Assembly: GCA_002897695.1 (NCBI GenBank)
Contig: BDTG01000009.1
Span: 1 to 23,179 of the forward strand
DNA from: a bacterium BMS3Abin14
GTDB lineage: Bacteria > BMS3Abin14
Direction: 5' to 3'
Length of the DNA stretch: 23,179 nt
This document shows positions 167 through 15,492 of this stretch, one piece after another. Each line of letters starts with the position of its first letter. Positions within the stretch are counted from its first letter, which is position 1. The position numbers and the translations under genes are program-made. Below the pieces are notes generated by a model. It did no database searches, was not told the DNA's origin, and saw only the letters and a program-made list of their open reading frames with translations.

Positions 167-185
167 TCAGAGGGAGTAACTGGTG

Positions 186-497
186 ATGGAGCAGCAGAAA
201 ATACGGATCAAACTCAAGGCCTACGATCACAGGATCCTTGACGCCTCGGTTGGCGAGATCGTCGAGACCGCCAAGCGTACCGGAGCCAGAGTCTGTGGCC
301 CCATCCCTCTCCCCACCATGAGGAGCATCTACACCGTGCTGCGTTCTCCCTTCATCGACAAGAAGTCAAGGGAACAGTTCGAGATCCGCGTCCACAAGCG
401 CATGCTCGATATCGTGGAACCCACACCCCAGACAGTGGATGCGCTCATGAAGCTTGACCTTTCGGCCGGCGTGGATGTTGAGATCAAACTTTCGTAG
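186..497 (+). CDS. rpsJ: 30S ribosomal protein S10
   Basis: This 103-aa protein is full length for S10 (usual 102-105). It carries the family core [13 protein letters not shown] near the N-terminus, GPIPLPT in the loop that reaches into the 30S head, and [20 protein letters not shown] followed by a VDVEIKL end. S10 binds 16S rRNA in the 30S head and also partners NusB in antitermination. Two adjacent in-frame starts exist, GTG at 183 and ATG at 186. I prefer ATG because AGGGAG at 171-176 is then nine bases away, but the GTG cannot be excluded. It is the first gene of the S10 cluster. The following gene should be rplC but is rplD. Confidence 0.97.
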
Positions 498-510
498 ATA
501 GGGGATGACC

Positions 511-1131
511 ATGCCTCAGGTGGACGTCTATAATGTAAAGAAGGAAGTGGTCGGGAAGGTAGACCTTGCCCCGTGGTGGGATGAGGATCCGAACGGGGCG
601 CTCATTCATCAGGCCGTCGTATCGGCGCTTGCCGGCGCCCGGAGGGGAACATCCTCCACTAAAACCCGGTCGGATGTCAGGGGCGGGGGTCGCAAGCCTT
701 TTCGACAGAAGGGAACAGGACGTGCGCGGCAGGGAACTATCCGCGCTCCCCAGATGAAGGGTGGGGGCGTGGTGTTCGGTCCGACTCCCCGGGATTTTTC
801 GAAATCGACCAACAAGAAAATGAGCAGAAAAGCCGTCAGGAACGCGCTTGCCCACCGGGCCGGATCCGGAACGCTTGTGGTCCTTGACAGGGTGGCGCTT
901 GAAGCGCCTAAGACCAGCGAACTGGTTGAATTCATGGACCGCATGGATGTGGTCAGCGCATTGCTTGTTGTCGAGGAGATCCAGGAGGAGCTTTTCAGGG
1001 CTTCCTCGAACCTGTCGTGGGTTAAAGTTGTCACCGTAGATCGAATCAATACCTACGATATTCTGGCATTTGAAAAGCTGATTGTAACCATGGGCGCCCT
1101 TGGCGCCCTGGAAGGAGCGCTGGCCAGATGA
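511..1131 (+). CDS. rplD: 50S ribosomal protein L4
   Basis: This is a 206-aa protein of normal L4 length. Family marks are [17 protein letters not shown] near residue 32, then the basic segment [19 protein letters not shown] that forms the extended loop lining the exit tunnel, and [12 protein letters not shown] in the C-terminal half. L4 is an early 23S rRNA binder and in enterobacteria represses its own operon. In-frame ATGs occur at 505 and 511. The SD-like AGGGG at 500-504 abuts the first and is six bases from the second, so 511 is chosen. Its N-terminus is complete, so the missing rplC has not eaten into this gene. It overlaps rplW by four bases. Confidence 0.97.
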
Positions 1132-1418
1132 AGCTGTATACGAAGATAATCCTCCGACCGCTTCTCACGGAAAAGAACACCGCCATGAAGGAAAAGGAAA
1201 ACAGGGTTGTGTTTGAAGTTGCCAGGGATGCCAACAAGCTGGAGATCAAGGGCGCTGTTGAGGAGGCATTCAAGGTTTCAGTGGAGGCCGTGAATATTCT
1301 GAACGTCAAGGGCAAGGTTAAAAGGCTAGGCCGCAACATGGGCAAAAGGCGCAGCTGGAAAAAGGCGGTGGTTACCCTCAAGGAGGGCAGCGTTATCGAG
1401 TTCTTCGAGGGCGTCTAG
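1128..1418 (+). CDS. rplW: 50S ribosomal protein L23
   Basis: This 96-aa protein matches L23 in length and pattern: [12 protein letters not shown] at the N-terminus, a [20 protein letters not shown] alpha/beta core, [15 protein letters not shown], and a [10 protein letters not shown] strand near the end. L23 sits at the polypeptide exit of the 50S subunit and is the docking site for trigger factor and SRP. The ATG overlaps the rplD stop as ATGA (1128-1131), which implies translational coupling. The gap to rplB holds an exact short direct repeat. Confidence 0.97.
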
Positions 1419-1428
1419 GGAAAAACGG

Positions 1429-1464
1429 GGAATGGGAGATAGATAGAGGAATGGGAGATAGATA
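1429..1464 (+). repeat. Exact 17-base direct repeat carrying duplicated RBS before rplB
   Basis: GGAATGGGAGATAGATA occurs at 1429-1445 and again at 1448-1464, separated by two bases. Each copy contains a GGGAG ribosome-binding motif. The second one (1453-1457) is seven bases from the rplB ATG and is probably the working site. Each copy also spells a four-codon mini-ORF, ATG-GGA-GAT-AGA-stop, and the second mini-ORF stops in TAATG overlapping the rplB start. The duplication is seen directly. Any role in coupling or attenuation is inference. Confidence 0.75.
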
Positions 1465-2286
1465 ATGGGTATTCGAAAACTCAAGCCTACATCGCCCGGA
1501 AGGCGTTTTCAGACCATCTCAGATTTTGCAGAAGTTACTGCAAGTAAGCCCGAGAAGAGCCTGCTCGCCCCATTACGAAAAACAGGGGGCCGCAATAATC
1601 TGGGCCGCGTCACGGCCAGCCACAGGGGCGGCGGGCACAAGAGGCGCTACCGGATCATCGACTTCAAGAGGAATAAACATGATATTCCGGCCAGGGTGCG
1701 GTCCATTGAATATGATCCAAACAGGTCCGCATATATCGCTCTTCTGGTCTACTCTGACGGCGAGAAAAGATACATCATTGCCCCGCAGGGGCTGAATGTT
1801 GGTGACGTTGTTCAGTCAGGTGAAAAGACTGATGTTCAGCCCGGGAACGCAATGAAGCTGAAAAATATCCCGCTGGGCACCCACCTTCATAATATCGAAA
1901 TCAAGGAAGAGAAGGGCGGCCAGATAGTTCGAAGCGCTGGAGGATTTGCCCAGTTGATGGCCAAGGAGGGTAAATACGTCCACCTCCGGCTGCCGTCGGG
2001 GGAGATCCGGCTGATACGCCGCGAGTGCATGGCCACCCTTGGCGAGGTTTCCAACCCTCAGCACGAGATCATTTCCATAGGCAAAGCCGGGCGTAACCGC
2101 TGGCGTGGCAAACGGCCCAACGTGAGGGGAGTTGCCATGAACCCGGTTGACCACCCCATGGGGGGAGGAGAGGGAAAGAGCTCCGGCGGCCGGCATCCCT
2201 GCACGCCCTGGGGCGTCCCCACGAAGGGATACAAGACCCGCAAGAACAAGAACTCCGACCGCTATATCGTAAAGCGGCGGTCCTAG
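1465..2286 (+). CDS. rplB: 50S ribosomal protein L2
   Basis: This 273-aa protein has the standard L2 length. It begins [14 protein letters not shown], contains [17 protein letters not shown] near residues 48-64, an SH3-like core, and the signature [20 protein letters not shown] near the C-terminus. His230 in this signature corresponds to the conserved histidine close to the peptidyl-transferase centre. L2 is needed for subunit association and peptidyl transfer. The ATG is supported by GGGAG at 1453-1457. It follows rplW after a 46-base gap with the duplicated leader and precedes rpsS by 15 bases. Confidence 0.98.
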
Positions 2287-2301
2287 AACGGGAGGATTAA
2301 A

Positions 2302-2583
2302 TTGGGCAGGTCCATCAAAAAAGGGCCGTTTGTGGATGACCACCTGATGAAGAAGCTCACCGTCATGGTCGAGAGCGGTGACAGGAAAGTCATCAAGACG
2401 TGGTCCAGAAGATCGATGATCATTCCCGACATGGTCGGATTTACCTTCGCTGTCCACAACGGCAGAAAGTTCGTCCCGGTGTTCGTTTCCGAGAACATGG
2501 TTGGGCACAGGCTGGGAGAATTTTCCCCCACCCGTACCTACAAGGGCCATACCTCCAAGTCGGACAGAAGAGGCAAAAAGTAG
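2302..2583 (+). CDS. rpsS: 30S ribosomal protein S19 (TTG start)
   Basis: This 93-aa protein starts [14 protein letters not shown] after the initiator and contains [37 protein letters not shown] and SPTRTYKGH-like sequence, all typical of S19. S19 binds the 30S head with S13 and contacts the A-site finger. The start is TTG at 2302, because no ATG or GTG lies in the right place, and GGAGG at 2291-2295 is correctly spaced. It is one of several TTG starts in this cluster. Confidence 0.97.
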
Positions 2584-2637
2584 CGCGCTTCATTTAGTTT
2601 TTGGATCCCAAAGAGGGTCTGAGGCGAGGGAGAGTTC

Positions 2638-2970
2638 ATGGAAGCACATGCAAAAGCGAAGTACGTGCGGGTTGCCCCGCGAAAACTCCGGCGCATCATG
2701 GATATGGTGCGGGGAAAGGACGTTTCGGAGGCATTGAGCGTTTTGTCGCTCGTGAAGAAGAGCGCATCCCCCGTGCTGGCCAAGGTAGTGCGTTCCGCGG
2801 TTGCAAATGCCGAGAACACCAAGGGCATGGATGTGGAACGGCTTTTCATCAAGACGGCCTTTGTTGATGAAGGTCCGACCATGAAAAGGTTTATGCCGCG
2901 GGCCATGGGTCGTGCAACGGTCATCCGCAAGAGAACCAGCCATATAACGGTTGTGCTTGGCGAGAAGTAA
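2638..2970 (+). CDS. rplV: 50S ribosomal protein L22
   Basis: This 110-aa protein carries [20 protein letters not shown] at the N-terminus, [12 protein letters not shown] in the middle, and [21 protein letters not shown] in the beta-hairpin that lines the nascent-peptide tunnel. It ends [10 protein letters not shown], the usual L22 end. L22 binds all six 23S rRNA domains. The ATG at 2638 follows a purine-rich GAGGGAG ribosome binding site. It sits between rpsS and rpsC as expected. Confidence 0.97.
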
Positions 2971-2981
2971 GGAGGCAGGAT

Positions 2982-3638
2982 TTGGGTCAGAAAGTACATC
3001 CCAAAGGGTTCCGGCTTGGGATTATTCAGGATTGGGATTCCCGATGGTACGCCGAAAAGGATTATGCGAAGCTGCTCCATGAGGATATTCGGATCCGTGA
3101 TTTTATCAAAAAGCGGCTCTTCCACGCAGGCATCTCCAAAATTATAATTGAAAGGACGGCCAAGCGTGCCAGGATAAACATCCACTCCGCCCGACCGGGG
3201 ATCATTATCGGCAAGAAGGGAGCGGAGGTTGAGGCACTTCGGCGTGAGATCAAAAAGATGACCGATAAGGATATCTTCATCAATATCATAGAGGTTCGCA
3301 AACCGGAGGTGGAGGCGCAGCTCGTCGCCGAAAACATCGCCAGCCAGCTGCTCCGGCGTGTTGCCTTTCGACGTGCCCTGAAAAGGAGCGTTGCCTCAGC
3401 CCTGCGCTTTGGAGCTGAGGGTATCAAGGTCATGTGTTCCGGTCGCTTGAATGGCGCTGAAATGTCGCGCAGGGAGTGGTACAGAGAGGGACGGGTCCCT
3501 CTACAGACCCTGCGTGCCGATATTGATTACGGGTTTGCCGAGGCAAATACCACCTACGGCATCATCGGCGTCAAGGTTTGGATTTTCAAGGGGGAAGTCC
3601 TGCCCGAAAAGGCCGGCGGATCTGAACCGGCCGCCTAG
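2982..3638 (+). CDS. rpsC: 30S ribosomal protein S3 (TTG start)
   Basis: This 218-aa protein opens [14 protein letters not shown], the S3 hallmark. It has a type II KH domain with [14 protein letters not shown] around residues 68-81, and the C-terminal S3 domain with [20 protein letters not shown] and [17 protein letters not shown]3 forms part of the mRNA entry tunnel on the 30S subunit. The start is TTG at 2982, with GGAGG about six bases upstream, and no alternative start gives the conserved N-terminus. The last codons are GC-rich and form an inverted repeat (GGCCGG 3611-3616 with CCGGCC 3627-3632). Confidence 0.97.
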
Positions 3639-3681
3639 GAGATTCGTTTTTTAATATCCGGTTCCGGATGGAGATTGTGTC

Positions 3682-4095
3682 ATGTTGATGCCAAAAAAGG
3701 TTAAGTTCAGAAAACAGCAACGTGGCCGGATGAGAGGTGCGGCCAGGAGAGGCAACATACTTAGCTTCGGTGATTTTGGGTTGCAGGCGCTTGAGCCGGG
3801 ATGGGTCACCGCCCGCCAGATAGAAGCGGCACGTATCGCCATCACGAGACACGTGAAGAGGGGCGGCAAGGTCTGGATCCGGGTCTTTCCCGACAAGCCT
3901 ATCACAAAAAAGCCCGCTGAGACCCGTATGGGTAAAGGCAAGGGCGCGCCGGAGGCCTGGGTCGCAGTGGTCAAGCCGGGACGTGTCCTGTATGAGCTGG
4001 AAGGGGTGACTGCCGATGTGGCCCGTGAGGCCATGAGATTGGCTTCCCACAAACTTTCCATAAAAACACGGATCCTGGTGAGGGAGGAAAACTGA
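3682..4095 (+). CDS. rplP: 50S ribosomal protein L16
   Basis: This 137-aa protein of normal L16 length starts [19 protein letters not shown] and contains [25 protein letters not shown]-type sequence, [22 protein letters not shown] and a final helix [17 protein letters not shown]16 helps position the A-site tRNA in the 50S subunit. ATG at 3682 is preferred over ATG 3688 because GGAG at 3670-3673 is eight bases away. A 14-base palindrome, ATCCGG-TT-CCGGAT (3656-3669), lies directly before the ribosome binding site. The stop TGA overlaps the rpmC ATG by one base. Confidence 0.97.
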
Positions 4096-4301
4096 TGAAG
4101 GCCAGGGATATGAGAGACATGACCGTTGACGAGCTCCTTGAGAAGGAGCGGAATATTTCCAGCGAACTTTTCAACCTTCGTTTTCAGCTCGCCACGAACC
4201 AGCTGGAAAATCCCATGCGCCTTCCGCTGATCAGAAAAGATCTTGCCAGAGTCAAAACTTTACTGGGGGAAAAGTCCGCCTCAGGTGAGGGGAAAGAATG
4301 A
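4095..4301 (+). CDS. rpmC: 50S ribosomal protein L29
   Basis: This small 68-aa protein is predicted to form two helices: [20 protein letters not shown], then [20 protein letters not shown] and DLARVKTLL, the classic L29 antiparallel hairpin. L29 sits at the tunnel exit beside L23. Its ATG is embedded in TGATG with the rplP stop, and its own stop TGA lies in ATGA with the rpsQ start, so it is coupled on both sides. A short charged tail ([11 protein letters not shown]) follows the second helix. Confidence 0.96.
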
Positions 4302-4591
4302 TGTCAGAGACGAATACTACCCGGAACAGTAAAATAATCACTGGCACCGTTGTCGGAAACAGGATGGATAAGACGGCGGTTGTGCAGTCCCACAGGAGGG
4401 TTGCGCACAAGGTGTATCCGAAATTTGTCAGCCGGCGTGTCAAGTACAAGGTCCATGACGAGGAGAACAGCCTTAACGTTGGCGATACGGTCAGGATTGT
4501 GGAGACCCGCCCCCTGAGCAGGGACAAAAGATGGCGACTTCTCGATGTCCTCGAAAAGGTCCCGATGGGCCCGGAAAAATCTGGTTCATGA
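4298..4591 (+). CDS. rpsQ: 30S ribosomal protein S17
   Basis: This 97-aa protein has an OB-fold pattern: GTVVGNRMDKTAVVQSHRRV, HKVYPKFVSRRVKYKVHDEE, NVGDTVRIVETRPLSRDKRW and a hydrophobic end. These are the conserved S17 blocks. S17 binds 16S rRNA helix 11 early in 30S assembly. Tandem ATGs stand at 4298 and 4301. The first overlaps the rpmC stop as ATGA. The extra ten or so N-terminal residues and the PMGPEKSGS tail make it slightly longer than E. coli S17 (84 aa), which is common. It is the last gene of the S10 part of the cluster. Confidence 0.96.
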   Translation: MMSETNTTRNSKIITGTVVGNRMDKTAVVQSHRRVAHKVYPKFVSRRVKYKVHDEENSLNVGDTVRIVETRPLSRDKRWRLLDVLEKVPMGPEKSGS

Positions 4592-4603
4592 AGAAAGTTA
4601 AAA

Positions 4604-4637
4604 TGACATTTTTCGCTTTACGTCGGATAAAAAGTCA
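4604..4637 (+). repeat. Inverted repeat in rpsQ-rplN gap
   Basis: TGACATTTTT at 4604-4613 can pair with AAAAAGTCA at 4629-4637, giving nine pairs with one bulged A and a 15-base loop. It lies in the 86-base gap separating the S10 and spc parts of the cluster. The AAAAAG/CTTTTT core and flanking GTC/GAC are shared with the element at 17232-17306. It may be an intergenic repeat or a weak bidirectional stem. There is no T-run after the downstream arm on the plus strand. Confidence 0.45.
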
Positions 4638-4677
4638 CTGATGGATTCTTCAGGACCCTGGAAAGAAGGTATTTGAG

Positions 4678-5046
4678 ATGATCAAGGTAGAGACAGTCCT
4701 ACATGTAGCCGACAACAGCGGGGCCAAGAAGGTGCTCTGTTTTAGAATACTCGGAGGGTCCAAAAGGAAGTCGGCCACTATAGGAGATGTAATTGTCGTC
4801 TCGGTGAAGGAGGCCACTCCCGAGTCCAAGGTAAAAAAAGGTGAGGTTCACAAGGCTGTTATCGTCAGAACCAGGAAAGAGATTCGAAGGCCAGATGGTT
4901 CCTACATCCGTTTCGACAACAACGCAGCTGTGATTATCAATGATCAGCAGGAGCCCGTTGGGACCAGAATCTTTGGTCCCATTGGTCGGGAATTGAGGGG
5001 AAAGAACTTCATGAAGATCGTTTCCCTGGCTCCAGAGGTCCTTTAA
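4678..5046 (+). CDS. rplN: 50S ribosomal protein L14
   Basis: This 122-aa protein of exact family length has [20 protein letters not shown] near the N-terminus, [19 protein letters not shown] in the middle, then [20 protein letters not shown] and [20 protein letters not shown] at the end. L14 lies at the subunit interface, contacts 16S helix 14 and is the docking site of the silencing factor RsfS. It is the first gene of the spc part of the cluster, 86 bases after rpsQ. L14 is strongly conserved, so the call is secure. Confidence 0.98.
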
Positions 5047-5057
5047 GGGAGATCCGA

Positions 5058-5378
5058 ATGCCGGCAACAGGTGTTAAAAAAAACGATTTTGTAGTCATCA
5101 CCGCTGGGAAGGAAAAAGGCAAAAAGGGGAAGGTCCTCAAGGTTGATCGCGACAAGAATCGCGTGGTTGTTGAGAAGGCCAACTTCATCAAGAAGCATAC
5201 TCGTCCTGCCGGCTCCCAGAAGCAGGGGGGAATCATCGAGAAAGAAGGAACCATTCATGTTTCCAACGTCATGCTCTATTGCGATAAATGCGGCAAGGGA
5301 GTAAGGGTACGTCGGCGGAAACTGGATGACGGCACCACGGCAAGACTATGCGCCGGGTGTGGAGAGTCGTTTGATTGA
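5058..5378 (+). CDS. rplX: 50S ribosomal protein L24, zinc-ribbon form
   Basis: This 106-aa protein has an N-terminal KOW motif (NDFVVITAGKEKGKKGKVLK, residues 9-28) and the L24 core ANFIKKHTRP. The C-terminal part has Cys75-x2-Cys78 and Cys98-x2-Cys101, a probable zinc ribbon seen in many bacterial L24 proteins but absent in E. coli. L24 initiates 50S assembly by binding the 5' part of 23S rRNA. The gene begins 11 bases after rplN with a GGGAG ribosome binding site. The zinc role is inferred from the four cysteines. Confidence 0.97.
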   Translation: MPATGVKKNDFVVITAGKEKGKKGKVLKVDRDKNRVVVEKANFIKKHTRPAGSQKQGGIIEKEGTIHVSNVMLYCDKCGKGVRVRRRKLDDGTTARLCAGCGESFD

Positions 5379-5420
5379 TGTTTTTTTCCGATGCATTCGG
5401 GTTAAGAGGAGTGTCAGTTG

Positions 5421-5960
5421 ATGGATACGCTGCAGAAGAAATTCCGGGAAGAGATAGTCCCGTCCATGATGAAGACGTTCAGTTACAGCAACGTCATGCA
5501 GGTCCCGCGAATGGAAAAAATCGTTCTCAACATGGGCCTTGGGGGTGCGCTTGAGAATGCCAAGATTCTGGACGTCGCCATGAAAGAGCTGGGCCGGATT
5601 TCAGGTCAGAGGCCGGTCCTGACACGTGCCAGGAAGTCCATAGCAAACTTCAAGCTCAGGGAGGGCAATCCAATCGGGTGCAGGGTTACCCTGCGCAGGG
5701 AGCGAATGTATGATTTTTTCTACAGACTCCTGAATATCGCGCTTCCTCGGGTCAGGGATTTCAAGGGGACCTCCAACAGGGCATTCGATGGCCGGGGTAA
5801 TTACACCCTCGGTGTGCGCGAGCAGCTCATTTTTCCCGAGATCAATTACGACGATGTCGAGGAGATCAGGGGAATGAACGTGACTATTGTCACCACTGCC
5901 GATACGGATGAGGAGGCCAAAGAGCTGCTGAGGCTTTTTGGTGTTCCTTTCAGAAAATAG
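5421..5960 (+). CDS. rplE: 50S ribosomal protein L5
   Basis: This 179-aa protein has the L5 blocks [77 protein letters not shown] and [21 protein letters not shown]5 forms the central protuberance with 5S rRNA and L18 and contacts the P-site tRNA. TTG at 5418 and ATG at 5421 are adjacent in frame. AGGAG at 5407-5411 suits either, and ATG is preferred. It is followed by a 91-base gap with a hairpin before rpsN. Confidence 0.97.
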
Positions 5961-5989
5961 AATTGATGATTTCGCAATAAGCTCCGTAC

Positions 5990-6018
5990 CTGCCTGTGTC
6001 TTGCACGCGGACAGGCGG
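5990..6018 (+). other. Hairpin between rplE and rpsN
   Basis: CTGCCTGT (5990-5997) pairs with ACAGGCGG (6011-6018), giving eight pairs including one U-G, with a 13-base loop. It occupies the middle of the longest gap inside the spc segment. E. coli controls its spc operon by S8 binding an mRNA hairpin near rplE, so a regulatory role is imaginable. However, I see no specific S8 consensus here and the position differs. Confidence 0.4.
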
Positions 6019-6051
6019 ACTTTTCGCGACCCAAGCATAACTGGAGGAGAA

Positions 6052-6237
6052 ATGGCGAAGAAAGCCCTGATTAACAAGGCCATGCGCAAGCCGAAGTTCG
6101 CGGTGAGGGGATATAATCGTTGCCCCCTCTGCGGCAGGTCAAGGGGATACCTGCGAAAGTTTGCTATGTGCAGGATCTGTTTTCGTGCCCGTGCCCTCGC
6201 CGGTGAAATCCCCGGCGTGGTCAAGGCCAGCTGGTAG
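6052..6237 (+). CDS. rpsN: 30S ribosomal protein S14, zinc-binding type Z
   Basis: This 61-aa protein is the short, zinc-containing S14 (C+ form). Cys24-x2-Cys27 and Cys40-x2-Cys43 form a zinc knuckle within [20 protein letters not shown]. It begins [20 protein letters not shown] and ends GVVKASW, as in Thermus, Bacillus and many anaerobic Proteobacteria-like lineages. S14 binds the 30S head next to S3 and S10. The ATG at 6052 has a strong GGAGGAG site at 6043-6049. The frame extends upstream without a stop, but only this start gives the family N-terminus. Confidence 0.97.
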
Positions 6238-6250
6238 GAGGAATATTGTC

Positions 6251-6649
6251 ATGTCAATGACCGACCCTGTCGCCGACATGCTGACCCGAATCCGAAACGC
6301 CCTGATGGCGGGCAAGGAGAAGGTCGACATCCCATCTTCGTCCCTGAAAGAGGATATAGCACGGATTCTCCAGGATGAGGGGTACATAAAAAGCTACCGT
6401 GTTCTCAGTGATGATAAACAGGGGGTCCTGAGGGTTACCCTTAAATATTCGGAGGGCGAGACACCCGCAATCATCCGGATTCAGAGAATCAGCAAACCTG
6501 GCGGGCGGGTTTATGTCGGGGCCAAAGAGATCCCCCGTGTTCTGAACGGGCTTGGCGTGGCTATACTATCAACTTCGAGGGGTGTGATGAGCGATGCCCA
6601 GTCCAGGAAGGAAAACGTTGGCGGCGAGGTCCTTTGCTACGTCTGGTAG
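6251..6649 (+). CDS. rpsH: 30S ribosomal protein S8
   Basis: This 132-aa protein begins [20 protein letters not shown] after the initiator and ends [25 protein letters not shown], both diagnostic of S8. The middle [20 protein letters not shown] is also typical. S8 binds helix 21 of 16S rRNA and in enterobacteria represses the spc operon. ATG at 6251 is nine bases from AGGAGG (6236-6241), which itself overlaps the rpsN stop. A second ATG at 6257 is too far away. The frame stays open upstream but without family similarity. Confidence 0.97.
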
Positions 6650-6730
6650 GCTGCCCGGCCCTGGTTCGGGATGGTGTGGATATCTTTCGGGATTTTGCCA
6701 GGTAATCAACGGTAATTGCGGGGAAAAATA

Positions 6731-7270
6731 ATGTCGAGAATCGGAAAACAGCCTGTTGGGATACCTGATGGGGTTGAAGTCGGAATGGAGGGGCGGCGCT
6801 TCACTGCAAAGGGCGCCCTGGGTCAACTTGGCAGGGATCTGCCCTTGGGTGTTGACGTGGAAATAGATAAAGAGGAAATTCGGGTTCTGCCGCCTTCAAG
6901 GCCCAAGGAAACCTCGGCCATGCAGGGGCTTGCCAGAACCCTCATCGACAACATTGTTCAGGGTGTTTCGAAAGGTTACGAAAAGGCCCTTGATATGGAA
7001 GGTGTTGGATATCGGGCAACGATCAAGGGTGCAGCACTTGAGCTCATGGTCGGATTCTCCAACCCGGTGGTTTTCCCGATTCCCGATGGGATCAAGATCG
7101 AGGTTGACAGGAATAACAGGATTACCATCAGAGGGATCGATAAGGAAAAAGTCGGCCAGATTGCAGCCGACATTCGGGCCGTCCGTCCCCCGGAACCCTA
7201 CAAGGGGAAGGGGATCCGGTATGTCAACGAGCGGATTCGACGTAAGGCTGGAAAGGCCGGCATTACGTAA
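6731..7270 (+). CDS. rplF: 50S ribosomal protein L6
   Basis: This 179-aa protein opens SRIGKQPVGIPDGVEV and has two repeated L6 domains. The second carries the classic PEPYKGKGIRYVNERIRRKA-GKAG block at the C-terminus. L6 sits near the factor-binding stalk base and sarcin-ricin loop. ATG at 6731 gives the family N-terminus, and an upstream in-frame TTG at 6716 would add five non-conserved residues. It has TAA-TAA tandem stops (7268-7273). An 81-base gap after rpsH precedes it and has no clear signal beyond a GGGG ribosome binding site. Confidence 0.97.
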   Translation: MSRIGKQPVGIPDGVEVGMEGRRFTAKGALGQLGRDLPLGVDVEIDKEEIRVLPPSRPKETSAMQGLARTLIDNIVQGVSKGYEKALDMEGVGYRATIKGAALELMVGFSNPVVFPIPDGIKIEVDRNNRITIRGIDKEKVGQIAADIRAVRPPEPYKGKGIRYVNERIRRKAGKAGIT

Positions 7271-7281
7271 TAATTTACCAT

Positions 7282-7308
7282 GAAGCCGTTGGCTGCCGTG
7301 CCGGCTTC
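7282..7308 (+). other. Hairpin between rplF and rplR
   Basis: GAAGCCG (7282-7288) and CGGCTTC (7302-7308) form a perfect seven-pair stem around a 13-base loop. It starts a few bases after the tandem stops of rplF and ends well before the rplR ribosome binding site. There is no U-run, so it is not an intrinsic terminator. It could protect or process the transcript. Confidence 0.45.
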
Positions 7309-7346
7309 GGTTTGCAGGTGAGGCCAGAGCTTACTGGTGGAGGAAA

Positions 7347-7721
7347 TTGAGGTTGAATAAAACAGAAAAGAAGAAAATGGCCCGTCTGAGGAGGCGTCGC
7401 AGAATCCGCGGCAAGATCAGCGGAACAGCCACAAGGCCCAGGCTCTCTGTCTTTCGAAGTTCCCGCCATATTTACGCTCAACTCGTCAACGACGAAATGG
7501 GAACGGTTCTGGCCAGCGCTTCAACCATGGACAGGGAGTTGAAGGGAACCACAAAATCCGGTGGCAATGAGGATGCAGCACGAGGGGTGGGAAAACTCCT
7601 TGCCAGGCGCGCATCGGATAAAAAGATCAACACGCTTATCTTTGACAGGGGCGGTTTTCAGTACCATGGCCGTGTAAAAGCGCTGGCTGATGCTGTCAGG
7701 GAGGGTGGTCTGAAATTCTAG
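7347..7721 (+). CDS. rplR: 50S ribosomal protein L18 (TTG start)
   Basis: This protein of about 122-124 aa has a basic N-terminus [20 protein letters not shown], then [20 protein letters not shown], and ends [20 protein letters not shown], all L18 family blocks. L18 and L5 bind 5S rRNA to build the central protuberance. Two TTG codons, at 7347 and 7353, are candidate starts. GGAGG at 7339-7343 is three bases from the first and nine from the second, so the true start may be 7353, giving MNKTEKKK as in relatives. No ATG or GTG serves. Confidence 0.96.
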
Positions 7722-7772
7722 GCCTGTGACGATGGCGATTCAGTACGCCCGGGAAGGACGGTAGAAGCGAAA

Positions 7773-8300
7773 ATGAAGAGATCCTTAAAACAGCCATTGA
7801 GAGAGCACCGTATCGACGACACCGAGATGATAGATAAGGTGGTGTTTATCAATCGTGTCGCCAAGGTTGTCAAGGGCGGCAGGCGGTTCCGTTTCAGCGC
7901 TCTCGTAGTGGTCGGTGACGGCAAGGGGACCGCTGGAGTTGGTTCCGGCAAGGCCAATGAGGTTCCGGAGGCCATCCGCAAGGGTATCGAAAACGGCAAG
8001 AAAAGCCTTTACAAAATCCCTTTGAACGGGACCACGATTCCCCATGAGATTATGGGACGATGGGGAGCGGCGAAGGTTTTCCTCAAGCCGGCTTCTGCCG
8101 GAACCGGCATTATCGCCGGTGGTCCGGTGCGTGCCCTCATGGAGTCCCTGGGTGTCAATGATATTCTCACCAAATGCATTGGGTCGAACAATCCGAACAA
8201 TGTTCTCATGGCCACCATGCAGGGGCTTTTGAGCCTGAGAAGCGCCGAGGAGATCGCCAACGTTCGAGGTAAAAAAGTCAGCGAGATCCTTCACGGCTAG
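7773..8300 (+). CDS. rpsE: 30S ribosomal protein S5
   Basis: This 175-aa protein has the double-stranded RNA-binding N-terminal domain with [20 protein letters not shown] and [20 protein letters not shown]. The C-terminal domain has [20 protein letters not shown] and [17 protein letters not shown]5 lies at the mRNA entry tunnel and contributes to decoding accuracy and helicase activity. The ATG at 7773 lacks a strong SD (only GGAAGG about 20 bases upstream and GTAGAAG nearer), so initiation may rely on coupling. The preceding gap is 51 bases. Confidence 0.97.
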
Positions 8301-8314
8301 GCTGGGAGAGAAAA

Positions 8315-8503
8315 ATGGGAAAAATTGACGTAACACTGGTGCGCAGCACCATCGGCAAGCCTGAAAAACAGGCCCGGGTTGTGCGGAGTCTGGGGTTGCG
8401 AAAGCTCAGCCAAACTGTCAGACACGATGACAACCCCCGGATCAGGGGTATGGTGAACAAGGTTTCCCATCTGGTTCGTGCCCATGAAGTGGAGGATGAA
8501 TAG
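8315..8503 (+). CDS. rpmD: 50S ribosomal protein L30
   Basis: This 62-aa protein has the L30 pattern: a [20 protein letters not shown] first strand and helix, then [20 protein letters not shown] and [12 protein letters not shown]30 is a small 23S rRNA-binding protein, present in most but not all bacteria. The ribosome binding site GGGAGAG (8304-8310) supports the ATG. The stop TAG directly abuts the ATG of rplO with no spacer. Confidence 0.96.
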
Positions 8504-8938
8504 ATGCTCGATCAATTAAAACCTGCCAGGGGTGCGATTAAGAAAAGCCGGCGTGTGGGCCGCGGTATCGGCTCGGGGTCCGGCAAGACCTGCGGCAGAG
8601 GGACCAAAGGGCAGGGCTCACGGTCCGGTGGCGGCGTGAAGGCCGGCTTTGAGGGCGGTCAGATGCCCCTGCAGCGCCGGCTTCCCAAACGTGGATTCAC
8701 CAATCCTTTTCGCACCGAGTACTCTGTTGTAAATCTCAAGGATCTTTCCCGTATTACGGATGTTGATGTTGTGGATCCTGATCTGATGGTTCGCTTCCGG
8801 CTTGCGAGGAAGGGGATGCCGATCAAGATCCTGGCTGTGGGAGAACTGGATCGTCCGGTGACCATAAGGGCCCACAGGTTCAGTGTTTCCGCAGCCGACA
8901 AAGTTGTCAGGGCAGGCGGCAAGACAGAGATCATCTAG
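8504..8938 (+). CDS. rplO: 50S ribosomal protein L15
   Basis: This 144-aa protein has the glycine-rich N-terminal extension RVGRGIGSGSGKTCGRGTKG followed by GGVKAGFEGGQMPLQRRLPK and RGFTN, the L15 signature. The globular C-terminal domain ends SVSAADKVVRAGGKTEII. L15 joins late in 50S assembly and its tail threads into 23S rRNA. It starts on the base after the rpmD stop, so its ribosome binding site lies within rpmD (GGAGGATG). It precedes secY by 11 bases. Confidence 0.97.
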   Translation: MLDQLKPARGAIKKSRRVGRGIGSGSGKTCGRGTKGQGSRSGGGVKAGFEGGQMPLQRRLPKRGFTNPFRTEYSVVNLKDLSRITDVDVVDPDLMVRFRLARKGMPIKILAVGELDRPVTIRAHRFSVSAADKVVRAGGKTEII

Positions 8939-8949
8939 GGGGCGATGAG

Positions 8950-10257
8950 TTGCTGCAAAGCTTTCAGAATATATTCAAAATACCGGAGTTAAAGCGCCGG
9001 ATCATCTTCACCCTCGTAATGCTTGCCGTCTATCGTGTGGGAACCCATATCCCCACACCGGGCATTGATGGCCCGGCGCTTGCGGAATTCTTCAAGCAGG
9101 CGCAGGGAACCCTCCTGGGGTTCTTTGACATGTTTTCCGGGGGCGCTCTCCTGCGAATGACGGTTTTTGCCCTTGGAATAATGCCTTACATCAGCGCCAG
9201 CATCATTATTCAGCTCCTGACTGTTGTCATCCCCTACCTTGAGAAACTTTCCAAGGAAGGAGAGGCGGGCCGCCGAAAGATTACCCGGTATACCCGTTAC
9301 GGCACCGTGGGGCTGGCGGCTTTTCAGAGCTTTGGCATCTCCATTGGTCTGGGGCAGATGACCTCACCCGGCGGGGCGCCCGTTGTTCCCGACCCGGGGT
9401 GGAGCTTCAGGATTATGACCGTGATCAGCCTCACTGCCGGAACCGCTTTTATCATGTGGATTGGGGAACAGATCACCGAGAGGGGGATCGGAAACGGGAT
9501 CTCTCTCATCATCTTTGCCGGTATTGTCGCCAGGATGCCTACTGCCATCGGACGATCGCTCTCCTTGATGAAAACAGGTGAAATCTCCGCATTTGTCATG
9601 ATTTTCATCCTGATCCTTATGATCGCCGTCGTGGCTTTTATTATCTTTATGGAACGTGGACAGCGAAAGGTGCCTGTCCAATATGCCAAACGGGTTGTAG
9701 GTAGAAAGATGTACGGGGGGCAGAGTACCCATCTTCCGCTCAAGGTCAACACGTCAGGGGTTATTCCGCCTATCTTCGCGTCCTCTATCCTGATGTTTCC
9801 AGCCACCATAGCCGGTTTCATTAAAAACCCCTACATGGATGCGCTCGCCCAGGCATTTTCCCCCGGGAAAGCCCTGTATACTTCCCTTTATGTGGGATTG
9901 ATCGTTTTCTTCTGCTATTTTTACACCGCGATCCAGTTCAATCCCGTGGATGTTGCCGATAATCTGAAAAAATATGGCGGGTACATTCCCGGGATCAGGC
10001 CAGGAAGGAAAACGGCGGAGTATATTGACAGGGTTCTGTCCAGGATTACGTTTGGAGGCGCCATCTATCTCTCCCTTGTCTGTGTCCTCCCCTCCATCCT
10101 CTACCGTCTCTTTAACGTCCCGTTCTATTTTGGAGGGACCGGGCTTCTGATCGTGGTTGGCGTTGCCCTGGACACAGTGACCCAGATTGAGACCCATCTG
10201 GTCACGAGGCATTACGACGGATTTCTAAAAAAGGGCAAAGTAAGGGGAAGGAGATAA
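8950..10257 (+). CDS. secY: Protein translocase subunit SecY (TTG start)
   Basis: This 435-aa polytopic membrane protein is the channel of the Sec translocon in the inner membrane and partners SecE, SecG and SecA. It shows about ten hydrophobic segments, the plug region after TM1, the signature GIMPYISASIIIQLL near residues 77-91, and the cytoplasmic C5 loop GIRPGRKTAEYIDRVL that contacts SecA and the ribosome. The start is TTG at 8950, because the nearby ATG at 8945 is out of frame. The ribosome binding site is the AGGGGGCGA run at the rplO stop. It ends one base before adk. Confidence 0.98.
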   Translation: MLQSFQNIFKIPELKRRIIFTLVMLAVYRVGTHIPTPGIDGPALAEFFKQAQGTLLGFFDMFSGGALLRMTVFALGIMPYISASIIIQLLTVVIPYLEKLSKEGEAGRRKITRYTRYGTVGLAAFQSFGISIGLGQMTSPGGAPVVPDPGWSFRIMTVISLTAGTAFIMWIGEQITERGIGNGISLIIFAGIVARMPTAIGRSLSLMKTGEISAFVMIFILILMIAVVAFIIFMERGQRKVPVQYAKRVVGRKMYGGQSTHLPLKVNTSGVIPPIFASSILMFPATIAGFIKNPYMDALAQAFSPGKALYTSLYVGLIVFFCYFYTAIQFNPVDVADNLKKYGGYIPGIRPGRKTAEYIDRVLSRITFGGAIYLSLVCVLPSILYRLFNVPFYFGGTGLLIVVGVALDTVTQIETHLVTRHYDGFLKKGKVRGRR

Positions 10258-10258
10258 A

Positions 10259-10921
10259 ATGGACATAATTCTCTTGGGGCCTCCCGGCGCAGGGAAGGGC
10301 ACCCAGGCGAAATTCATAGTTGAAAAATGGAAAATTCCACAGGTCTCAACCGGTGATATCTTGAGGTCCGCCGTTCGTGAGGGGACCGCCCTCGGTGTTG
10401 AGGCAAAGTCCTTTATGGACAAGGGCGAGCTTGTGCCTGACCGGGTTGTGATAGGCATCATCGCGGAAAGATTGAAGGAGGATGACGCATTCAAGGGTTT
10501 TATCCTTGACGGGTTTCCGCGCACCATCCCCCAGGCAGAGGCCCTTGGCGCAATACTCGCGCGAATGGGCCGCGCCATTGATCACGTCGTCAGCATAGAG
10601 GTCGAGGATCAGGATCTGGTCGCACGCCTGACTGGCCGAAGGATGTGCAAGGAATGCGGAGAAAGCTTCCATATGGTCTTTAACCCGCCCAAAAATGCGG
10701 ATACCTGTGATGCCTGCGGCGGTGCACTTTATCAAAGGGATGACGATAAAGAGGAGACCATCAGGCAGCGGTTGAAGGTTTACCACGATCAAACCTCTCC
10801 CCTGATATCGTTTTACAGCGAAAAAGGATGCCTGAGGCCCATTAAGGGCACCGGCGGCATCGAGGAGATTTTCACCCGGATTGAACAGGCCTTGGCCGGC
10901 GAGTCCCAGAGCTGTTCTTGA
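10259..10921 (+). CDS. adk: Adenylate kinase, zinc-lid type
   Basis: This 220-aa enzyme interconverts ATP + AMP and 2 ADP in the cytoplasm. The P-loop GPPGAGKGT is at residues 7-15, the NMP-binding region follows STGDILR, and DGFPRT is at 84-89. The lid (about 126-163) has Cys130-x2-Cys133 and Cys150-x2-Cys153, the structural zinc site of Gram-positive and many other bacterial kinases that E. coli lacks. Placement directly after secY is common. The ATG is one base after the secY TAA, with ribosome binding site AAGGGGAAGG inside secY. Confidence 0.98.
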   Translation: MDIILLGPPGAGKGTQAKFIVEKWKIPQVSTGDILRSAVREGTALGVEAKSFMDKGELVPDRVVIGIIAERLKEDDAFKGFILDGFPRTIPQAEALGAILARMGRAIDHVVSIEVEDQDLVARLTGRRMCKECGESFHMVFNPPKNADTCDACGGALYQRDDDKEETIRQRLKVYHDQTSPLISFYSEKGCLRPIKGTGGIEEIFTRIEQALAGESQSCS

Positions 10922-10970
10922 TAGCCCCATGTTCTGGACGACTCCGGTTCCATAACCTCGGACTGGTTTG

Positions 10971-11729
10971 ATGATATACAGAAAAAGTCCCGCCGATATT
11001 TCCGCCATGTACCAGGGTGGCGCTATTGTCGGTAGTATTTTAGAAAAAATGAGGCTGGTGGTGAGGCCCGGGATCGCCACTTCCCGGATAGAGGCGGAAG
11101 CCGACCGGCTGTCAAAATCCATGGGGGTCATAGCCGCCTTCAAGGGCTATCGCGGCTATCCGAGCAGCGTCTGTGTCTCTGTGAATGATGAGGTGGTCCA
11201 CGGGATTCCTTCCGGAAAACGGCGGTTGGAAGAGGGTGACATCGTCGGGCTGGATTTTGGGGCCTTGTTCAAGGGTTTTTTCTCCGACGCTGCGGTAACC
11301 CTTCCCGTGGGCAAACCCGGGGATGAGGCAAGGCGTCTCATGAAGGTTACAGAGGAGGCACTATACAAGGGTATTGACGCTGCGCTGGTCGGCAATCGCA
11401 TTGGAGACGTATCCCATGCGGTCCAGCAGCATGTTGAGGGCAAAGGATACTCGGTGGTTAAGGTTTTTGTGGGGCACGGCATTGGCCGAAGCCTGCACGA
11501 GGAACCCCAGGTGCCCAATTTTGGGGATCCCGGGTGGGGTGTCCGCCTCAAGGAGGGGATGACCATTGCCATTGAGCCCATGGTAAATGCAGGCGGGGAT
11601 GAGGTGCGTGTTCTTGAGGACGGGTGGACTGCGGTAACGGCGGACGGGAGCCTTTCTGCACACTATGAGCACACCATTGCAATTACGACCAACGGGCCCA
11701 GGATACTGACTCTGGCCGGATCGGACTGA
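10971..11729 (+). CDS. map: Methionine aminopeptidase, type I
   Basis: This 252-aa enzyme removes the initiator methionine from nascent proteins. The five metal ligands of the pita-bread fold are visible: Asp95 (GLDFGA), Asp106 (SDAA), His169 (GHGIG), Glu202 (IEPM) and Glu233 in the [10 protein letters not shown] block when aligned. Substrate-site His77 (VVHGIP) and His176 are also present. It lacks the N-terminal SH3/zinc extension. TTG at 10968 and ATG at 10971 are adjacent, and ATG is preferred. SD is weak. The 46-to-49-base gap after adk shows no other signal. Confidence 0.97.
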
Positions 11730-11745
11730 GGGAGAGCGAGGGAAT

Positions 11746-11964
11746 ATGGCGAAAGAAGAGGCCATAGAGGTAGAGGGAACGGTGGTGGAACCACTGCCCA
11801 ATGCGATGTTTCGTGTTGAGTTGGAAAACGGCCACCAGGTGCTTGCCCATATTTCTGGGAAAATGCGCATGCATTACATAAGAATCCTGCCCGGGGACAA
11901 GGTGACGGTGGAGCTTTCCCCCTATGATCTGACCAGGGGAAGGATCACCTACAGGGCCAAGTAA
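11746..11964 (+). CDS. infA: Translation initiation factor IF-1
   Basis: This 72-aa protein is exactly the family length. It has an OB fold with [40 protein letters not shown] and [20 protein letters not shown]. It ends ITYRAK. IF1 blocks the ribosomal A site during initiation and assists IF2 and IF3. The start is supported by GGGAGAGCGAGGG upstream. A strong GC hairpin begins on the base after the stop codon, before rpmJ. Confidence 0.98.
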
Positions 11965-11984
11965 CGCGCCCACAGAAGGGCGCG
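11965..11984 (+). other. Perfect GC-rich hairpin after infA
   Basis: CGCGCCC (11965-11971) and GGGCGCG (11978-11984) form a seven-pair all-GC stem around the loop ACAGAA. It starts immediately after the infA TAA. No U-run follows (next bases CCAAAC), so it is unlikely to terminate transcription on its own. It may stabilise the 3' end of a processed infA message or modulate rpmJ-rpsM expression. Confidence 0.6.
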
Positions 11985-12012
11985 CCAAACGAAGATTTGA
12001 GAGGGTAGCAAG

Positions 12013-12126
12013 ATGAAGGTCAGACCGTCTGTCAAGAGGATGTGCGACAAGTGCAAAATTATCCGACGCAAGGGTATTGTTCGTGTGATTTGCGAAAACC
12101 CGAGACACAAACAGCGGCAGGGTTGA
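12013..12126 (+). CDS. rpmJ: 50S ribosomal protein L36, zinc form
   Basis: This 37-aa protein reads [20 protein letters not shown] and then [17 protein letters not shown]. It is the canonical short L36 with zinc ligands Cys11, Cys14, Cys27 and His32 (C+ form). L36 binds 23S rRNA near the base of the L7/L12 stalk. The ATG at 12013 follows a GAGGGTAGCAAG stretch with GAGGG as the ribosome binding site. Location between infA and rpsM is the conserved position. It is short enough to be missed by length-based gene calling. Confidence 0.96.
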
Positions 12127-12150
12127 TTTCAGATTTCAGGAGGATAAACA

Positions 12151-12522
12151 GTGGCGCGTATCGCTGGAGTGGATTTACCAAGGAGCAAGAGGGTCGAGGT
12201 TGCCCTGACCTATATTTATGGGATCGGACCCTCAAAAGCCGGCCGGATAGTGCGGGACGCCAAAGTGGATCCCGATGTTCGTGTGGTAGACCTGGATGAA
12301 GGACAGATCGTTCGTCTTCGCGAGGTTATTGACAAGTCCCACATGGTCGAGGGTGACCTTCGCAGGGAGGTGGCCTTCGATATCAAGCGCAAGATGGATC
12401 TGGGGTCTTACGAAGGGCTTCGGCACCGGAGGGGATTGCCGGTGAGGGGACAACGCACGAAAACCAATGCGCGGTCCAGGAAAGGGCATAGGCCTTCTAT
12501 CGGTGGAAGAAAAAGGAAGTAA
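12151..12522 (+). CDS. rpsM: 30S ribosomal protein S13 (GTG start)
   Basis: This 123-aa protein begins [20 protein letters not shown] and IYGIG, continues with the helix-two-turn-helix body, and ends in the basic tail [20 protein letters not shown]. All are S13 marks. S13 lies in the 30S head and bridges to the 50S subunit, contacting P-site tRNA through its tail. The GTG at 12151 has a good AGGAGG site (12138-12143). In E. coli the leader before rpsM is the S4-regulated site. The 24-base gap here is too short to hold the known pseudoknot. Confidence 0.97.
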
Positions 12523-12543
12523 ATCTGATGGCTGGAGGAAAAA

Positions 12544-12936
12544 ATGGCAAGACCTAAGAAAAAAGGATCCGCAAAAAGGGTCAAGAAAAATGTACCCGTC
12601 GGCGTGGCCCACATACAGGCGACATTCAACAATACCATAATTACCATCACTGATCCGGTCGGGAATACCCTGGCCTGGAGTACCGCAGGGAGCAAAGGTT
12701 TCAAGGGATCGAGAAAAAGCACACCTTTTGCTGCCCAGCTGGCAGCGGAGGACGCCGCCAAAAAAGCCATGGAACACGGTGTGCGTAAGGTTGACGTACT
12801 CGTTAAAGGGCCGGGGTCCGGCCGTGAATCGGCTCTGAGATCCCTCCAGGCCGCAGGGCTTGAGGTAAAATTAATTCGGGATGTGACCCCTATCCCTCAT
12901 AACGGATGCCGGCCGCCGAAAAGGCGCAGGGTCTGA
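12544..12936 (+). CDS. rpsK: 30S ribosomal protein S11
   Basis: This 130-aa protein carries [60 protein letters not shown] and the C-terminal block [17 protein letters not shown]. These match S11 throughout. S11 is part of the 30S platform and interacts with the Shine-Dalgarno helix. A ribosome binding site GGAGG (12534-12538) supports the ATG. It lies 21 bases after rpsM and 15 before rpsD. Confidence 0.98.
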
Positions 12937-12951
12937 CGAAGGAGGAAGAAA

Positions 12952-13578
12952 TTGGCTCGATACCGTGAATCCGTATGCCGACTCTGCCGTAGAGAGGGCA
13001 CAAAGCTTTTTCTTAAGGGAGATCGCTGTTATTCAGACAAGTGTGCGGTAGAGCGCAGGCCCTACCCCCCCGGCATGCACGGCACCCGCAGGATGAAGCA
13101 ATCAGACTATGGCATTCAGCTCAGGGAAAAACAGAAGGCCCGTAGAATATACGGGGTCATGGAGTCTCAGTTCCGTAATTATTTTAAGACCGCCGATGGA
13201 CAGAAAGGCGTGACCGGCCAGAATCTCCTTGTCCTTCTGGAGAGACGTCTGGATACCGCCGTGTACCGTCTGGGGTTCGCCACTTCCCGTGCCGACGCCA
13301 GGCAGCTCGTAAAACATGGGCATATTATGGTCAACGGCAGGAAAGTCGATATCCCGTCGTATCTCCTCAAGATAGGAGATGAGATTCAGATAAGGGAAAA
13401 AAGCCGCGAATCCGTAAGGGTCAAGGAGGCAATGATCTCCGCTGAGAGAAAGAGCGTTCCCGCCTGGCTGGACCTCGAGGTAAAGGCGTTCAAAGGGGTA
13501 TATAGAAATTATCCTACCCGCGAGGATGTCGCGCTGCCCGTTCAGGAGCAGCTGATCGTTGAGCTTTACTCCAAATAG
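12952..13578 (+). CDS. rpsD: 30S ribosomal protein S4, zinc form (TTG start)
   Basis: This 208-aa protein has an N-terminal zinc-knuckle region with Cys9, Cys12, Cys26 and Cys31, then [35 protein letters not shown], and the S4 RNA-binding domain [40 protein letters not shown]. The end [14 protein letters not shown] is typical. S4 nucleates 30S assembly and in enterobacteria represses the alpha operon. The start is TTG at 12952 after GGAGGAAG. The following 111-base gap before rpoA is rich in stem-loops. Confidence 0.98.
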
Positions 13579-13581
13579 TTC

Positions 13582-13676
13582 CGATGTATCGGCAGTTGGT
13601 TTATGGCGACAATACCACCGGGTTTGGGGTGAAACCGATGGGATTCGCTCCACGATGTGATCAGGGAGCGCAATCC
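13582..13676 (+). promoter_or_regulatory. Structured rpsD-rpoA intergenic leader (candidate regulatory RNA)
   Basis: Three inverted repeats fill the 111-base gap. CCGAT-GT-ATCGG lies at 13582-13593. GGTTT-GGGGTG-AAACC lies at 13621-13636. A long stem pairs GGATTCGCTCC (13641-13651) with GGAGCG and AATCC (13665-13670, 13672-13676), giving 11 pairs interrupted by one bulged C, with a 13-base loop. The last stem ends four bases before the rpoA ribosome binding site AGGAG (13680-13684). Stems are seen directly. Regulation, for example of alpha-subunit synthesis by a ribosomal protein, is inference. Confidence 0.5.
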
Positions 13677-13689
13677 GCGAGGAGTCAAG

Positions 13690-14721
13690 ATGACAATAAT
13701 GGATACTAACTGGAAGAGTCTGACCCGCCCAAAAAAATTGGAATTCGACAACGATTCACAGTCTGAAACGTTCTGTCGTTTTTCCACTGAGCCCTTTGAA
13801 CGGGGGTATGCCACCACGCTGGGCAACGCTCTGAGGAGGGTTTTGCTTTCTTCCCTTCAGGGGGCAGCTGTTACCGCCTTTCGTATTGAAGGTGTCCTGC
13901 ACGAGTTTTCAACGATCCCCGGGGTCTATGAGGATGTGACCCAGATAATTCTCAACCTGAAGGAACTCCGGTTCAAGGTACATTCCCAGGAGCAGAAGAT
14001 CATTTCCCTGGATGTCAGCAGGGAGGGAATGATTACCGCAGGTGACATCATAACCGACCAGGACGTTGAAGTTCTCACTCCCACCAAGCCTGTTGCGACC
14101 CTGGAGAAAGGCGCACATCTGAAGATGGAGGTCGTCGTAAGGTTAAACAAGGGTTTTATCACCGGTGACAGGAACAAGGATGAGGATCTCCCCGTGGATT
14201 TCATCGCCATAGATTCCATCCATTCCCCGGTGGTCAAAGTGAACTACCATGCTGAAAATGCACGTGTGGGGCGGATGACAAATTTCGACAAACTGGTCAT
14301 GGAGATTACAACCGACGGCAGCGTGCTTCCTGAGGACGCTCTGGCCTACGCTGCAAAGATCATAAAGGAGCACATGAACCTCTTTATCAACTTTGAGGAG
14401 ACCTCAGCGGTGGAGGCGGAGACAGAAAAGGAGGACGTGGAGGAGAGGGAAAATCTCCACGAGAAGCTTAACAGACATGTCAATGAGCTGGAGCTTTCCG
14501 TCAGGTCCATTAATTGTCTGCAGAACGCAGACATTGACACCATTGGCGAACTGGTCCAGAAAACTGAGCCGGAGATGCTTAAAACCAAAAATTTCGGAAG
14601 AAAATCGCTCAACGAACTCAAGGAAATTCTTCTGGAAATGGGATTGACCTTTGGAATGGACGTGAAAGGATGGGAACCTTCTACGGAGGTGGAAGAGGAA
14701 CCTCCTCCGACGGATGACTGA
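13690..14721 (+). CDS. rpoA: DNA-directed RNA polymerase subunit alpha
   Basis: This 343-aa protein is the alpha subunit. The N-terminal dimerisation domain has FSTEPFERGYATTLGNALRR followed by VLLSSLQGAAVTAFRIEGV. A linker rich in Glu (ETEKEDVEERENLHEK, about residues 250-265) leads to the C-terminal domain with ELELSVRSINCLQNADIDTI, GELVQKTEPEMLKTKNFGRK and SLNELKEIL, which binds UP elements and activators. ATG at 13690 is five bases from AGGAG (13680-13684). The frame opens earlier at 13657, without similarity. The acidic proline tail EEEPPPTDD is a lineage feature. Confidence 0.98.
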   Translation: MTIMDTNWKSLTRPKKLEFDNDSQSETFCRFSTEPFERGYATTLGNALRRVLLSSLQGAAVTAFRIEGVLHEFSTIPGVYEDVTQIILNLKELRFKVHSQEQKIISLDVSREGMITAGDIITDQDVEVLTPTKPVATLEKGAHLKMEVVVRLNKGFITGDRNKDEDLPVDFIAIDSIHSPVVKVNYHAENARVGRMTNFDKLVMEITTDGSVLPEDALAYAAKIIKEHMNLFINFEETSAVEAETEKEDVEERENLHEKLNRHVNELELSVRSINCLQNADIDTIGELVQKTEPEMLKTKNFGRKSLNELKEILLEMGLTFGMDVKGWEPSTEVEEEPPPTDD

Positions 14722-14768
14722 TGGAAAACAACTGAATGCTGATGTAACAGGGAAAGGCAGGGAGCTTT

Positions 14769-15472: not shown

Positions 15473-15489
15473 TTGTGAGGGTATCACAA
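15473..15489 (+). promoter_or_regulatory. Palindrome over the ECF ATPase ribosome binding site
   Basis: TTGTGA-GGGTA-TCACAA is a perfect six-base inverted repeat with a five-base centre. It ends three bases before the ATG at 15493. As DNA it resembles operators of the TGTGA/TCACA kind. As RNA it would fold into a hairpin with the GGG of the putative ribosome binding site in the loop. Either would allow control of the transporter gene, but no regulator is encoded nearby. Confidence 0.45.
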
Positions 15490-15492
15490 TAT

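Follow-up and report, generated by a model that had tools for sequence, protein, structure and literature searches.

Ribosomal protein gene rplC away from the S10 cluster in the bacterial phylum BMS3Abin14, with a conserved leader hairpin as a candidate element of L3 control

Introduction

Where is ribosomal protein L3 (uL3) encoded in a bacterium whose S10 cluster passes directly from rpsJ to rplD, and how could its synthesis be matched to that of its former neighbours? In ordinary S10 operons, L3 is produced from the same mRNA as the neighbouring proteins and shares with them a common feedback control, exerted in E. coli by uL4. The window, i.e. the whole stretch of DNA analysed here (23,179 nucleotides), is the entire contig C9 of the genome of bacterium BMS3Abin14, which comprises 2.28 Mb in 49 contigs and is estimated to be 100% complete. 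For the absence of rplC from this cluster, the initial annotation left three explanations side by side, namely that L3 has moved elsewhere in the genome, that the assembly has dropped about 650 bases at the junction, or that the window carries a second copy of the cluster.

Two sets of genomes were compared with that of the window. The phylum was represented by 12 genomes from one family, covering eight genera, whereas the survey outside the phylum sampled genomes across the domain, mostly one or two per family. The adjacency of the genes for L3 and L4 was judged from coordinates in the 215 genomes in which both were located among the matches listed, about 80 further sampled genomes being left uncounted.

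Results

The rpsJ-rplD junction in the window

The features of both loci are collected in Table 1. The two genes bordering the junction are intact, with rpsJ starting at GTG and sharing 89-100% identity with the copies of its relatives. As the initial annotation had described it, the rpsJ stop codon leads straight to the start of rplD at 505 or 511, both ends being preserved and the short junction containing just the ribosome-binding site of rplD (AGGGG). Of the two ATG codons, both located after the rpsJ stop, the one at 511 is favoured, since the start ATGCC(T/C)CA(G/A) is common to most relatives and AGGGG is positioned just 5' of it. The order claimed for the remaining genes was found as well: rpsJ and then rplD to rplQ stand in the standard order of the S10-spc-alpha cluster in the list of open reading frames (ORFs), the identity of most genes downstream of rplD having been read from their translations rather than from a profile test for each. 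The order rpsJ-rplC-rplD is absent from the window and from ten relatives, and the ORF list of the window contains no L3. A 3' end of tuf precedes rpsJ, which is also the case in nine of the ten rplC-less clusters examined from other lineages.

Concerning the distal part of the window, rplQ (bL17, 14769-15350) has a long C-terminal tail rich in Lys, Ala and Thr, with repeated KQ(A/V)KxDAK-like units. The ORF located 3' of it (15475-17226; 583 residues) resembles two cobalt/ECF-type ABC ATPases fused in one chain, and is followed by a TrpB-like gene, accD, folC and an LptD-like gene.

Table 1 Features of the rpsJ-rplD locus in the window and of the relocated rplC in the same genome (G000)
Feature	Position	Strand	Basis
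tuf (EF-Tu), 3' end, upstream of rpsJ, truncated by the contig start	2..127	+	translation
rpsJ (uS10), intact, GTG start, stop TAG at 495-497	183..497	+	PF00338, E 3.7e-37
rpsJ-rplD junction, the usual rplC slot in most bacteria	498..510	+	direct reading
rplD (uL4), intact	511..1131	+	PF00573, E 5.4e-63; alignment of starts
rest of the cluster, to rplQ	1128..15350	+	ORFs and translations, standard order
rplC (uL3), relocated, monocistronic	G000:C10:117297-117974	minus	PF00297

A single L3 gene elsewhere in the genome

The search of the whole genome with the profile PF00297, proposed together with the initial annotation, revealed one L3 only, located on contig C10 and scoring 64.6 bits against a cut-off of 22. 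The protein is of full length (226-231 residues), and its residues 5-211 align with solved bacterial L3 chains at an E-value of 1e-71. L3 and L4 are both present, once each, in 11 of the 12 genomes of the phylum, the twelfth, which is 71% complete, having neither. The spacing in relatives, also put forward for comparison, is equally uniform: in all 11 members carrying the genes, rpsJ is joined to rplD across a gap of roughly 10 nt and L3 is encoded elsewhere, and none of these 11 genomes has rplC between rpsJ and rplD or a second rplC. In the three single-contig assemblies (G002, G003 and G009) the distance between the genes for L3 and L4 ranges from 33 kb to 1.7 Mb; in G002, for example, L4 is found at 0.39 Mb and L3 at 2.10 Mb.

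An artefact of assembly or binning, with about 650 bases dropped at the junction, might be suspected from the fact that the genome is a draft of 49 contigs and that the window begins at a contig end. Against this, the intact junction recurs in eleven independent assemblies, three of them single-contig and each with one L3 elsewhere, so that the junction is the true arrangement and neither a chance feature nor a gap; the probability left to an artefact is negligible. Of the three explanations offered at the outset, the move of L3 thus stands, the drop-out being ruled out by the independent single-contig assemblies and the second copy of the cluster or replicon by the single-copy state of both L3 and L4. 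Since the junction and the relocated rplC are common to all 11 members carrying the genes, the exit of rplC from the operon is ancestral to the phylum, L3 itself having been kept.

The neighbourhood of the relocated gene

In the genome of the window, rplC lies about 180 nt downstream of the gene for tRNA-Sec (selC), with a divergent gene for an ABC1 kinase upstream and, downstream, an ORF with a receiver domain and a regulator of the ArsR type. Within the phylum, selC is situated 0.1-8 kb upstream of rplC in 8 of 11 genomes, an ArsR-type gene follows rplC in 10 of 11 (the downstream side differing in G005), and uvrA is located upstream in five. The neighbourhood is conserved and ancestral, later insertions having parted the neighbours in some genera. 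It should be noted that most of the phylum has selC in the vicinity of rplC (L042, 10151-10248, and relatives), and its members therefore probably make selenoproteins. With regard to the protein, the C-terminal tail of L3 is short in the window's genome, G001 and G002, and in most other genera it extends over 30-100 acidic residues rich in Glu, Ala and Pro (L045-L052), an odd feature for a ribosomal protein.

A conserved hairpin in the rplC leader

In all 11 genomes the leader of rplC is directly preceded by sigma70-like boxes (TTGAC-N17/18-TAnnnA). The 5' UTR itself is ordered as CUAAAMCAUYC, a variable apical part, GGAUAAGAURG and the ribosome-binding site, and its consensus fold (RNAalifold) is one hairpin of about 70 nt. 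In the outer helix, P1, CUCC pairs with GGAG of the rplC ribosome-binding site and is continued by CUA:UAG; the inner helix, P2 (AUYCRY:RYGGAU), covaries, and between the two helices there is a symmetric internal loop, AAMC/AAGA, with near-invariant strands. Standard pairs occupy 93.9% of the pair cells, versus at most 48% once the pairing is shifted by 1-3 columns, and P1, with 90.9% of its cells paired, could occlude the ribosome-binding site. The covariation score of the leader exceeds those of all 500 shuffles; five pairs are altered on both sides, a count matched by 47 of the 500. Single leader sequences fold alone into the hairpin or most of it, their folding energies lying just 1.7-2.5 standard deviations under those of shuffled sequences, one of five showing no excess.

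A covariance model of the leader yields one strong match per phylum genome (E-values from 1e-12 to 1e-16), always at the start of rplC, the next-best matches in the phylum having E-values of 0.05 or worse. No match at an E-value of 0.01 was obtained in 133 sampled genomes outside the phylum, searched with stricter filters by which weak matches could be missed, and no Rfam family matches the leader up to an E-value of 5. On the basis of only 11 sequences, the element is thus a conserved, covarying and rplC-specific 5'-UTR structure. The same leader was not found at other relocated rplC genes, which means that relocation does not in general entail this leader; one match about 1 kb upstream of the rplC in L097 (E-value 0.5-1.1) was taken as chance. 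The comparison with 23S rRNA had to rely on that of E. coli, the organism's own being absent from the assembly, and gave short partial matches at 192, 1140 and 2731, all near chance. These partial matches do not make a convincing case for mimicry of E. coli 23S rRNA, and binding of L3 by that route is unsupported.

Relocation of rplC outside the phylum

Outside the phylum, L3 and L4 are encoded apart in 21 of the 215 genomes with both located among the matches listed. These 21 come from 19 families, and each of them has rplD immediately after rpsJ in its DNA. The relocation is therefore estimated to concern about 10% of the sampled genomes outside the phylum, and the statement in the initial annotation that nearly all bacterial S10 operons have rplC between rpsJ and rplD, while true of most, was too strong. 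In addition, rplC lies away from rplD in the stretches examined from two metagenome-assembled genomes (MAGs) of Myxococcota and one further MAG (L067, L076 and L097), being near a contig end in L067 and L076. Neighbourhoods of rplC differ between the lineages with a free-standing gene, and on the concatenated tree, going by its starred branches, the location of the gene must have changed at least six times; the move has thus recurred, though one old event may account for a large part of the cases. Two side observations concern the same sample. The L4 match of G254 (C1:146235-146801) contains three in-frame TGA codons, and as L4 is essential, TGA is probably translated as an amino acid in this genome (code 4 type). 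Neither the L3 nor the L4 profile matched in G156 and G211, both rated 100% complete.

Discussion

Age and origin of the free-standing rplC

The move may be considerably older than the phylum, in which case a deep clade including Myxococcota-like lineages would have inherited a free-standing rplC vertically, its few operon-type members having re-gained the linkage or being misplaced. Such a history, which concerns timing and is compatible with the explanation preferred here, has a substantial chance of being right, if a smaller one than its opposite. The enlarged concatenated tree places the phylum in a group of 24 rows (19 free-standing and 5 operon, support 93), and the three MAGs mentioned above add further free-standing L3s. 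An earlier tree with fewer taxa, however, set the phylum beside operon-type genomes; the varying L3 neighbourhoods, the at least six forced changes of location and the restriction of the leader to the phylum also speak against it.

Horizontal transfer, by which a free-standing rplC with a variant loop would have been acquired and would have displaced the operon copy here and likewise in other phyla, draws on a loop of L3 (alignment columns 134-148; residues about 132-148 in the window's genome, L001) that we take, from 50S structures, to be the segment reaching towards the peptidyl-transferase centre. In the aligned set, the motif [ST]HGTHE..R.GGSIG is present in 25 of 27 free-standing L3s and 3 of 40 operon L3s, the usual loop of the operon type being SHGS-..HR.PGSIG; the exceptions are the f81 genomes, free-standing with the ordinary loop, and the f6 genomes, one MAG of Auribacterota and G019, with the variant loop in an operon L3. 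The L3 tree gathers 22 of the 25 free-standing rows and 5 of the 44 operon rows into a group of 27 (support 96/91), and 3 label changes suffice for it, whereas seven further cluster genes need 9-13. This grouping nevertheless rests on the loop, as it vanishes without the 15 loop columns, the label changes of L3 then amounting to 8, the same as in the concatenated tree. Nor is the incongruence specific to L3, since every gene tested rejects the concatenated topology, and in tests with held clades L3 behaved no differently from L4 or L2; the L3 data did not reject a grouping of the phylum with what were then its closest operon-type relatives (p-AU 0.164), and the two copies of rplC were not encountered together in any genome. 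The independent-pairs test found just three informative pairs, which agreed in direction (p 0.25), so that the association between the loop variant and the free-standing location is unproven, being not phylogenetically significant. With its main suggestion weakened by the removal of the loop columns and by the rejection of the concatenated tree by all cluster genes tested, whole-gene transfer of L3 was set aside as improbable.

Proposed control of L3 synthesis

The explanation preferred, and held with good confidence as a whole, is that rplC left the S10 cluster no later than in the common ancestor of the phylum and is now a single monocistronic gene with its own promoter and leader hairpin, probably controlled by L3. 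No longer carried on the shared S10 mRNA, the gene would need a dosage control of its own. It would be transcribed alone from its sigma70-type promoter near selC, its entire 5' UTR forming the conserved hairpin of about 70 nt; L3 itself would bind the invariant internal loop and stabilise the closed hairpin, which would hide the rplC ribosome-binding site, and feedback and balanced synthesis of L3 would be restored for a gene off the S10 mRNA. The analysis shows that the gene has moved, that its new location is conserved throughout the phylum, that it is single-copy, and that promoter-like boxes and a conserved structure specific to rplC precede it; the last steps, with L3 as the ligand and its binding as the cause of translational repression, are inferred as the most likely ones.

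A hairpin closing over the ribosome-binding site and carrying an invariant loop would be as expected of an autogenous leader of a ribosomal protein, and L3 appears to be the most economical ligand, at close to even chances. It may instead be that the conserved segment is merely a constrained promoter or ribosome-binding-site region, or that it binds another ribosomal protein, a small RNA or a metabolite. Part of P1 would be constrained in any case, since it contains the ribosome-binding site, and the ligand is at present putative, no likeness to the L3 site of E. coli 23S rRNA having been found. The invariant strands, however, are flanked by two helices that covary, they lie outside the promoter boxes and, for the most part, outside the ribosome-binding site, and the element is found at rplC only, which leaves these possibilities rather unlikely. 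That a hitherto undescribed leader of the relocated rplC binds L3 and acts autogenously, having evolved to replace the control at the operon level, is accordingly put forward as a tentative proposal, somewhat short of even odds.

The supposedly universal order of the S10 cluster is thus broken at rpsJ-rplC-rplD in roughly one tenth of the sampled bacterial genomes and in one entire phylum, so that marker-gene and synteny methods assuming rplC in that slot will err. The relocation is a natural experiment on how the dosage of an early-assembly ribosomal protein is matched once its gene is off the shared mRNA; the phylum-specific hairpin offers a testable answer and is a candidate for a new RNA family. 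The association between loop and location, should further data bear it out, would tie the location of a gene to ribosome function.

Comparison with known systems

The rplC of the phylum shares with the free-standing genes of L067, L076 and L097 and of the 21 sampled genomes the lack of adjacency to rplD and, in nearly all of them, a similar L3 loop of the HGTHE type. It differs in that those genes have other neighbours, no tRNA-Sec gene in the stretches scanned and no match to the leader.

Autogenous leaders of ribosomal proteins include those of bL20, uS15, uL10 and uL1, together with the S10 leader of E. coli bound by uL4. Like them, the rplC leader has a 5'-UTR structure that can sequester the ribosome-binding site as well as conserved unpaired nucleotides; unlike them, it has no match in Rfam and its ligand is putative. 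In a 2024 review of extraribosomal functions (PMC10931766), uL3 appears a single time, without being described as an autogenous regulator, and our literature search, for which subscription journals were mostly beyond reach, found no paper on a cross-phylum relocation of rplC or on an L3 leader.

Removals of genes from ribosomal clusters with the neighbours staying joined are known for other genes, the explanation given being that the operon copy disappeared once a duplicate, or a homologue that was already present or had been transferred, was available (PMC8046335). Four deletions were described there in detail (rpmJ, rpsN, rplJL and secY, in Gammaproteobacteria and Bacilli), rplC being absent from the main text; earlier surveys are represented, as cited therein, by Coenye and Vandamme 2005. 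The present case resembles these deletions in that one gene is out, its neighbours are joined and the gene survives elsewhere, whereas here the gene that moved is that of L3, an essential ribosomal protein, its move is fixed in a whole phylum and it recurs in other lineages. The event is thus of a known kind, what is new being the identity of the mover, L3, and the structured leader, which probably regulates rplC.
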